Positions 3,365-16,260 of a stretch of DNA of 64,000 bases are shown one piece after another. How positions within the stretch are numbered: the first letter of the stretch is position 1; every line of letters starts with the position of its first letter. The stretch is from Bacteroidota bacterium (lineage in GTDB: Bacteria > Bacteroidota > Ignavibacteria > Kapaibacteriales > UBA2268). The stretch lies in the NCBI GenBank assembly GCA_004322215.1, contig SCSM01000021.1, positions 62,001 through 126,000 of the forward strand, given 5' to 3'. The translations under genes were made by a program, and so were the position numbers. The notes under the pieces are model-generated. The model did no database searches and was not told the origin of the DNA. It saw only the letters and a list, made by a program, of their open reading frames with translations.

Positions 3365-3504
3365 TCTTAAAATTAATTATTTGCTTCTAATTTATTATTT
3401 CATTACGAAATAATTTAATATTTTCCATTTCTAAATCAATATAAAATGATTTTTTACAATTAAATTCGCATTATTGTTTAAAATTTTAAATTTATTCATT
3501 TTAT

Positions 3505-5775: not shown

Positions 5776-5859
5776 CCATAAAAAAACCGATTATTTGAAT
5801 TGTAATCTTATACAACTATTGATAATAATTCCTTGTTATAATTTATTTAAAATAGAATT

Positions 5860-6888
5860 TTAATCTCTTGTTTTTCTACCCGCGGAAAAATCTTTCCCTC
5901 TTGAACTTTTTCCTTTTGAATATTTTTCCCGTGAATCTCTTCCTCCTCTCGAATCTCTAACCCCTGAATCTCTTCTTCGTCTCGAATCCCTATCTCCTGA
6001 ATCTCTTCCTCCTCTCGAATCCCTGTCTTTGAAACTTCTTTCTCTTGTACCCTTTCCTCTTGAATCTCTATCCCTTGGACTTCTGTCTCTCGACGCTCTG
6101 TCCCGTGAATCTCTCCTGCCCCTGTCTCCTCTGAATCCGGACTTTGGTTTAAATTCTCTTTCCCTTCTCTCGTTAAAATAATTTCCTTCAAAGACAATTA
6201 CAAACTCTCCCTTGAATTTCAATTCTTTGAATTTTTCAAATAGCTCGCTAAATGTTCCGTAGTGATTAGTTTCGAAATGCATCGTCAGGTTGCATCCGAT
6301 ATAAGCACGGCGGTTAGGCATCAATTTTGAGCATGCCTCGAGAACCTGCAATATCCTGTATGGAGCTTCCAACAGTACGACCGTCCTTTTCTCATCTCTC
6401 AGATGTTTTAATTGCCAAATTCTGTCTTCACTGTCCCTGCTCAAAAATCCTGCATACAGAAATGTATTTATTGAAAATCCGCTCCTAACGATAGCTGCCA
6501 TTAAACTTGATGCACCCGGCACTACCTCGATATGATAATTCCTGTGAATCGCAGTTTTAACAAGTTGGTATCCCGGGTCGGCAAAAACCGGTGTACCGCA
6601 ATCGGAAATCAAGGCGAGTTTTTTTCCTTCTTCAAGTAATCCGATAATTTCCTGAGTCTTTGAATCTTCGTTTTGTTCGTTCAACTCAATAATATCACAT
6701 GTAAGATTATTCCTCTTTAATAGTTGAAATGCAGGTTTGGGTTCTTCGCAAATAACCAAATCGCAACTTTTCAGAACCTTTATTGCCCTGAAGCTTATAT
6801 CTTCATCATTTCCTATTGGTGTAGAAACGATATAGAGTATTCCCTGTTTTTTTTCTTCACTTTCAGTTGTTCTAATAATTTTTCCCAT
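5860..6888 (-). CDS. rsmI: RsmI-family 16S rRNA methyltransferase with Arg/Asp/Ser-rich tail
   Basis: 342 residues. Residues 16-236 match the tetrapyrrole-methylase fold of RsmI, which methylates the 2'-O of C1402 in 16S rRNA: YIVSTPIGNDEDISFRAIKVL (split 19-39), ISDCGTPVFADPG (94-106) and VVPGASSLMAAI (122-133). The usual AEDTRHT motif is replaced by CEEPKPA. From about residue 237 a 105-residue low-complexity tail repeats units such as RDSRGGRD and SRDR, unlike ordinary RsmI, which ends near 280-290. The tail is strongly basic/acidic mixed and should be disordered. The underlying DNA is an imperfect tandem repeat. tsaC lies 64 bp upstream behind a terminator. Confidence 0.88.
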   Translation of the reverse strand: MGKIIRTTESEEKKQGILYIVSTPIGNDEDISFRAIKVLKSCDLVICEEPKPAFQLLKRNNLTCDIIELNEQNEDSKTQEIIGLLEEGKKLALISDCGTPVFADPGYQLVKTAIHRNYHIEVVPGASSLMAAIVRSGFSINTFLYAGFLSRDSEDRIWQLKHLRDEKRTVVLLEAPYRILQVLEACSKLMPNRRAYIGCNLTMHFETNHYGTFSELFEKFKELKFKGEFVIVFEGNYFNERREREFKPKSGFRGDRGRRDSRDRASRDRSPRDRDSRGKGTRERSFKDRDSRGGRDSGDRDSRRRRDSGVRDSRGGRDSREKYSKGKSSRGKDFSAGRKTRD

Positions 6889-6952: not shown

Positions 6953-7597
6953 TTAAGCATTTTCTATATCTACATATTCAAGTACTTTTGTTATACCTGC
7001 TCCATGCCTCATAATCCTGAATTCATCTGTCGTCATGTCAATAACAGTTGATTCGCCAAGAAAATTATATGCATCCGAACGAACCGCAACATCAACGAAT
7101 GGCATAAACTTCTTAATAAGCATTTCAGGGTCGCTTATTGATACCCCATCAGGAAATTTTGCCGAAATCGATATAATAGGCACATCCAGCTCTTTTAATA
7201 ATATTTGCGATAAATTGTGGACAGGCACACGAATTCCTGCTGTCTTTCTTTTCGGGTCCCATGCAAATTTCGGTACCTGTTTGGATGCAGGCAGTACAAA
7301 TGTATATGGACCTGGTATTAATCTTTTGATTGTTCTGTAAGCAGTATTGCTCACTTTTGCAAACTCTGATAAATTCGATAAGGAACCGCATAGAAAAGTC
7401 ATCGCTTTTTCCTCCGGTAATCTTCTTATTGCTCTTATCCTTCCGATTGCTTCTTTGTTTGATAGTTCACACCCTAACGTAAATCCCGTATCGGTAGGAT
7501 ATAATACCACCGCTCCTTGCCTCAAAGCATCTGCAACCTCGTAGATTTTTCTCATCTCGGGTGTCTTCGAGTGTATTGTAAGAACTTCTGATGTCAT
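6953..7597 (-). CDS. tsaC: L-threonylcarbamoyladenylate synthase (TsaC/YrdC/Sua5 family)
   Basis: 214 residues covering one YrdC domain; the extra C-terminal Sua5 domain is absent. The family motif VLYPTDTGFTLGC sits at about 31-43, followed by IRAIRRLPEEKAM and LIPGPYTFVLPA. The enzyme makes threonylcarbamoyl-AMP from threonine, bicarbonate and ATP, the first step of t6A37 tRNA modification. It ends in a clear terminator, so it is probably a single-gene unit. Some bacteria carry several YrdC paralogues, so the t6A role is inferred from family membership. Confidence 0.9.
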   Translation of the reverse strand: MTSEVLTIHSKTPEMRKIYEVADALRQGAVVLYPTDTGFTLGCELSNKEAIGRIRAIRRLPEEKAMTFLCGSLSNLSEFAKVSNTAYRTIKRLIPGPYTFVLPASKQVPKFAWDPKRKTAGIRVPVHNLSQILLKELDVPIISISAKFPDGVSISDPEMLIKKFMPFVDVAVRSDAYNFLGESTVIDMTTDEFRIMRHGAGITKVLEYVDIENA

Positions 7598-15829: not shown

Positions 15830-16260
15830 TTACTAATGCCAAATTATTATTGCCAATTTTTCTGCTTTTATCATTTTAAATTTTTTCATTGAAAATTTAT
15901 TGAAAATTGAAAATTATTATTAGTACCAATTTATTATTTCCGAATTTTTGTTTTTATCATTTTAAATTTTTTCATTGAAAATTTATTGAAAATTGAAAAT
16001 TATTATTTGTACCAATTTATTATTTCCGAATTTTTGTTTTATCATTTTAAATTTTTCATTGAAAATTTATTGAAAATTGAAAATTATTATTAGTATCAAT
16101 CTATTATTTCCGAATTTTTGTTTTATCATTTTATATTTTTTCATTGAAAATTTATTGAAAATTGAAAATTATTATTTGTACCAATCTATTATTTCTGAAT
16201 TTTTGTTTTATCATTTTAAATTTTTTCATTGAAAATTTATTGAAAATTGAAAATTATAAA
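15830..16260. repeat. Tandem repeat, five copies of about 85 bp
   Basis: The core TCATTGAAAATTTATTGAAA begins at 15886, 15972, 16056, 16141 and 16226, giving periods of 86, 84, 85 and 85 bp. Each copy also contains ACCAATTTATTATTTCCGAA and TTTTGTTTTATCATTTTAAA. The first copy is degenerate upstream. The array fills most of the 547-bp rplY-pth gap. No spacers differ between copies, so it is a satellite-like array, not a CRISPR. Related single copies lie at 3.5, 4.5 and 20.0 kb. Confidence 0.9.

Follow-up and report, generated by a model that had tools for sequence, protein, structure and literature searches.

A class-wide duplicate of the 16S rRNA methyltransferase RsmI with an arginine-rich, predicted-disordered tail in one of its subclades

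The rsmI2 locus and its product

The DNA analysed here is a stretch of 64,000 nucleotides from a Bacteroidota bacterium, referred to throughout as the window. It contains a gene that we name rsmI2 (5860-6888; the gene and the parts of it described below all lie on the minus strand)—an open reading frame with an ATG start whose 342-residue product is a paralogue within the RsmI family of class III TP_methylase proteins, with a C-terminal tail that is predicted to be disordered. The folded methyltransferase core (NTD and CTD) spans residues 16-237 (6178-6843), as supported by a profile match (the A1 profile, described below), an AlphaFold2 model, and Foldseek. Within the core, the motif CEEPKPA can be read directly at residues 47-53 (6730-6750) in place of AEDTRHT, as an earlier sequence-only reading of this DNA had pointed out. 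The AdoMet-binding loop GTPVFADPG follows at residues 98-106 (6571-6597), where residue comparison equates the conserved D104 with D100 of E. coli RsmI; further on, GCNLTMHFETNHYG at residues 198-211 (6256-6297) is the RsmI2 counterpart of RELTK..E in canonical RsmI, with E197 replaced by N and K200 by M.

The remainder of the protein is the tail, residues 238-342 (105 aa; codons 5863-6177), which runs from FNERREREFKPKSGFRGDRGRRDSRDRASRDRSPRDRDSRGKGTRERSFKDRDSRGGRDSGDRDSRRRRDSG to GRKTRD and is rich in R, D, S, G, and K. Its coding DNA includes an imperfect tandem array with periods of 33, 18, and 15 bp (TRF; 5928-6024), so that both the Arg/Asp/Ser-type tail of about 105 residues and the repetitive DNA beneath it, as first read from the sequence, are borne out. 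An overlapping 116-aa frame at 5847-6197, also on the minus strand, is E/R/I-rich and reads the tail repeat in its +1 frame; it carries 0 to 6 stops in relatives and is an unconserved by-product of the repeat. Upstream of rsmI2 lies an ORF (6953-7597, minus strand) that we take to be a Sua5/TsaC-like gene. The gene order around rsmI2, with Sua5 and MreB adjoining, is conserved solely within the genus and in a single nearby genome, and the neighbouring genes are therefore uninformative as a functional clue.

By profile scores the window protein is a clear RsmI relative: it reaches 190.9 bits against the TIGR00096 equivalog (cut-off 167.9; profile positions 1-228 of 275) and 101 bits against PF00590, while the TIGR00096 scores at loci L016 and L108 are 187.2 and 221.1 bits. 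The closest solved structures found by sequence search are those of E. coli RsmI (9pzg and 5hw4), and Foldseek matches the core to 3kwp, 9pzg, and 5hw4. In the AlphaFold2 model, built from a ten-row alignment, pLDDT means of 10-residue blocks range from 59 to 95 in the core, and pLDDT stays under 50 at residues 239-342, which matches the expectation for disorder. No Pfam family other than TP_methylase was found in RsmI2, tail included. The sequence-only reading had held that known RsmI proteins end near 280-290 residues without such a tail; this is incomplete, as proteins of that length end in the helix-turn-helix domain RsmI_C (PF23016), which we found in a proteobacterial RsmI and whose position the long tail takes. 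PF23016 is absent from both RsmI paralogues of the source genome; its absence, shared by the canonical RsmI, is thus not discriminating.

A second RsmI copy and its active-site signature

Three TP_methylase proteins are encoded in the source genome. Besides the window protein there is an intact RsmI of canonical type (238-242 aa; loci L002 and L043), which has SEDTRHT and lacks a tail, and a 518-aa protein that is only distantly related (28.8 bits against the RsmI2 profile) and probably a uroporphyrinogen-type methylase. The tailed gene was at first read as an RsmI with an added tail, but the coexistence of an intact canonical RsmI makes it a paralogue, RsmI2. Almost all of 40 relatives have both copies; the orthologues are 49-84% identical to the window gene product, the canonical copies 31-40%. 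RsmH, the N4-methyltransferase that also acts on C1402, is present.

The A1 profile, made from 22 orthologue cores, was searched against 197 genomes from the class and a phylum set of 395. Strong RsmI2 matches occur across the whole order, with two genera of family f2 (g22 and g31) as exceptions. Most of the remaining orders in the class also have clear copies, the majority of them tail-less (ORFs of 224-260 aa). The near-complete genomes G024 and G033 of the two excepted genera (loci L061 and L062) have canonical RsmI without RsmI2, which was either lost or never there, and RsmI2 is thus dispensable; in genus g35, which belongs to that family too, G091 and G099 have RsmI2 with tails of 350-360 aa. 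At 19 loci comprising second-ranked matches in the class and matches in other classes of the phylum, the canonical EDTR is present in every case, and the EE type therefore appears restricted to the class within this sample. A tree of 124 cores, obtained by a quick search with SH-aLRT support and no bootstrap, places RsmI2 (71 rows) in one clade apart from canonical RsmI (SH-aLRT 99), and the canonical copies of the order (RsmI1; 32 rows) are set off by a branch of their own (SH-aLRT 99). RsmI2 is, then, an ancient duplicate of the 16S rRNA C1402 2'-O-methyltransferase RsmI that is spread through a class of Ignavibacteria-like bacteria and usually occurs alongside the canonical enzyme. No description of this paralogue was found in the part of the literature that was searched. 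As a separate observation, genomes of family f22 (G054, G063, G072, and others) each give a single RsmI-like match that is unusually weak (E about 1e-25 to 1e-31); their RsmI may have diverged or been replaced.

RsmI2 shares with RsmI (YraL; TIGR00096; PDB 5hw4, 9pzg) its fold, its family, and the residues I21, T95, D100, and R174 (numbering of E. coli RsmI), and E203 is also retained. It differs in forming a separate clade that coexists with canonical RsmI, in lacking RsmI_C, in the long R-rich, predicted-disordered tail of one subclade, and in a set of substitutions that we counted in 53 canonical and 71 RsmI2 proteins. D45, R47, P146, E197, and K200 are invariant in the canonical set; in RsmI2 we find D45E (66/71, against ED in 53/53 canonical proteins), R47K (59/71), P146S (54/71), N or D at position 197 (69/71, with E retained once), and M or L at position 200 (63/71, with K in none). 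Additionally, A124 is replaced by S in 67 of 71, and Y169 mostly by L or M. The AdoMet pocket is kept: the equivalents of D100 and T95 are conserved at 99% and 90%, and G94, P96, D100, and P101 are nearly invariant. In E. coli RsmI, mutation of D100 abolishes AdoMet binding, Y169 is dispensable for that binding, and R174 contacts the C1402 phosphate in a docking model (PMC5053481). With its AdoMet residues retained and their neighbours replaced, the cofactor site of RsmI2 appears intact in surroundings that are consistently different.

The tail-less RsmI2 proteins of other orders carry the identical EE..K / N(D)..M(L) signature, from which it follows that the motif changed before the tail arose and independently of it. 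This divides an earlier suggestion that tail and motif together point to altered rRNA recognition: the motif fits altered RNA recognition, but a single joint change of motif and tail is ruled out.

The same residues bear on what RsmI2 could still do. E197 and K200 may be catalytic, and the activity could thus have been lost. RsmI2 might then be a non-catalytic paralogue, a ribosome-assembly or RNA-chaperone protein that has the RsmI fold without methylation and touches RNA mainly through its basic tail; the loss of E197, K200, D45, and R47 would fit such a protein, as would the strong basicity and predicted disorder of the tail. A dead enzyme, however, has no need of a nearly invariant G94, P96, D100, and P101, and the AdoMet-pocket residues are retained in tail-less RsmI2 of other orders too, so we consider this unlikely. 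Somewhat less likely again is a redundant or conditional C1402 2'-O-methyltransferase whose tail makes up for the missing RsmI_C. The score above the TIGR00096 equivalog cut-off, the resemblance in fold to structures of RsmI, the 30S complex 9pzg among them, and the retention of R174 and E203 are compatible with such an enzyme; yet a canonical copy coexists that likewise does without RsmI_C and has no tail either, and the RsmI2-specific changes at universal positions are near-fixed across the class.

Composition, distribution, and retention of the tail

Counted from where the core match stops (106 aa), the window tail is 29% R, 8% K, 20% D/E, and 28% G/S, with a net charge of +19. The repeat unit changes from genome to genome—RDSRGG in the window, ERRPDGERSGGFN in G012, KFGDKKFGDR in G029, SSEDRPKREYTPR in G019, GGERRSGGFRDD in G031, and RGG-like units in G013 and G079—and long RsmI2 tails measure 30 to 364 aa. 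Among complete tails of 25 aa or more, 42 of 43 are net positive (the exception is G034); four tails are net-negative, three of which end at a contig boundary. At loci L116, L119, L063, L030, and L026 a strongly acidic D/E block precedes the basic R-rich part, giving a polyampholyte layout, and some of these proteins also have acidic N-terminal extensions.

All long tails on RsmI2 (25 aa or more) belong to a single subclade (51 sequences; SH-aLRT 95). On the quick tree the tail state has to change three times within RsmI2, consistent with one gain and two losses (G006, and the pair G036/G027). The short ends inside the tailed clade, of 5 aa in G006, 18 aa in G036, and 11 aa in G027, indicate that a long tail is not strictly required. 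In all 29 genomes with both copies the C-terminal extension of RsmI2 exceeds that of RsmI1 (median 106 versus 3 aa). Tail-less RsmI2 proteins commonly have a short basic tip (PTERRK, KKIDRRR, RRVERKR), and a basic end may be the ancestral state of RsmI2.

The sequence-only reading had also named what would speak for a recent, unselected repeat expansion, namely absence of the tail in close relatives together with frame-disrupting indels there; the congeners have the opposite. The tail is in frame in all three of them, and in a frame-blind DNA alignment of the four congeneric tails every indel is a multiple of 3, with codon phase kept at 100%. Differences among congeners at codon positions 1, 2, and 3 are 0.18-0.34, 0.20-0.30, and 0.28-0.51 in the tail, highest at the third position, compared with 0.04-0.15, 0.02-0.08, and 0.34-0.59 in the core. 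Where calculable, dN/dS is 0.13-0.33 for the tail and 0.03-0.10 for the core; the tail values are rough owing to low-complexity alignments, and several core dS values are saturated. From these alignments, the tail is seen to be under purifying selection that is relaxed relative to the core. In the tailed subclade, frame and composition are retained, whereas repeats expand and contract and so keep changing the sequence and length of the tail.

Within its genome the tail also stands apart. When 864 kb of the source genome (about a fifth; 1115 stop-to-stop ORFs of at least 100 aa) were scanned for composition, the window tail was the sole 60-aa segment with at least 62% R/D/G/S/K; with no second such segment in that sample, it is not a genome-wide habit. 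A genome search with the tail as query recovered only the tail and that of one congener; because the known tails of G001 and G002 escaped it, we draw no conclusion from that search. Taken together, the data support a tail that is real, predicted to be disordered, exceptional in its genome, and selectively retained. A functionless, unselected expansion at a tolerant protein end, to which the imperfect DNA repeats, the varying unit and length, and the short ends in G006, G036, and G027 could be referred, is improbable given the tail's retention in one large clade and never on RsmI1 (29/29 pairs), its in-frame indels and purifying codon-position pattern, the constancy of composition and positive charge under changing sequence, and the lack of a similar segment elsewhere in the 864 kb.

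Proposed function and comparison with known systems

On balance we lean towards RsmI2 being a methyltransferase with a different RNA target and an RNA-tethering tail. After the duplication, the canonical RsmI would have stayed on C1402; because that site is served by the retained copy, RsmI2 would act, still as an AdoMet-dependent RNA methyltransferase, on another nucleotide or another RNA. The arginine-rich tail probably holds RNA: it would serve as a tether without sequence specificity that raises the local concentration of the enzyme on rRNA or other RNA, its flexible charge doing what RsmI_C may do in other bacteria. The mixed R/D charge could also permit weak self-association, and we infer RNA binding or condensate formation as candidate roles for the tail. 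A more specific version, which we put forward tentatively and with rather less confidence, is a lineage-specific RNA 2'-O-methyltransferase with a non-C1402 target, delivered by a fast-evolving R-rich tail in a layout convergent with that of fibrillarin and its GAR domain.

This likeness to fibrillarin is one of architecture only. Fibrillarin has a class I fold, unrelated to that of RsmI2, and works in an RNP complex; most RsmI2 tails are R/D/S/G-mixed and not the pure RGG of a GAR domain. Fibrillarin is the eukaryotic rRNA 2'-O-methyltransferase with an arginine-rich disordered GAR domain, and GAR-like regions were reported to be absent from the 212 bacterial proteomes surveyed in one study (PMC7608942). 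SR proteins, which combine an RS-dipeptide domain with an RRM, resemble RsmI2 in letters only, through the mixed R-D-S composition, and RsmI2 does not qualify as one of them. The putative methyltransferase 1wyz from Bacteroides thetaiotaomicron is likewise an RsmI-like protein of the TP_methylase fold from Bacteroidota; it is too distant to be an orthologue (E 6e-13 versus 2e-39 for E. coli RsmI; 18-20% identity).

Both copies exceed the TIGR00096 cut-off, and automatic annotation would thus label both as the C1402 methyltransferase—an unassigned RNA-modification enzyme of a whole bacterial class may therefore be concealed by an established name. From a duplicate that spans a class and has universal residues replaced, one would predict an RNA methylation site that has yet to be mapped. 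Additionally, a single conserved enzyme whose ends vary from 5 to 364 aa provides a natural series well suited to testing bacterial disordered regions in which composition stays and sequence does not.

Other low-complexity or repetitive stretches also occur. The main DEAD-box helicase of the source genome (L137; C20:548715-549215) has a C-terminal tail of about 55 aa that is basic and low in complexity, as the RsmI2 tail is, and is composed of K, R, N, and S; it differs in being K/N-rich without an R-D repeat and in belonging to an unrelated enzyme. Basic C-terminal tails of known DEAD-box helicases tether RNA unspecifically. Near position 3370 of locus L209 (C37 of the source genome) a 633-aa ORF also ends in a basic C-terminal tail (PRRDGKPQQQRPQRKRKK). 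Finally, the window itself holds an AT-rich tandem array at 15845-16257, with an 85-bp unit in 4.8 copies and 94% matches, which is intergenic in appearance.
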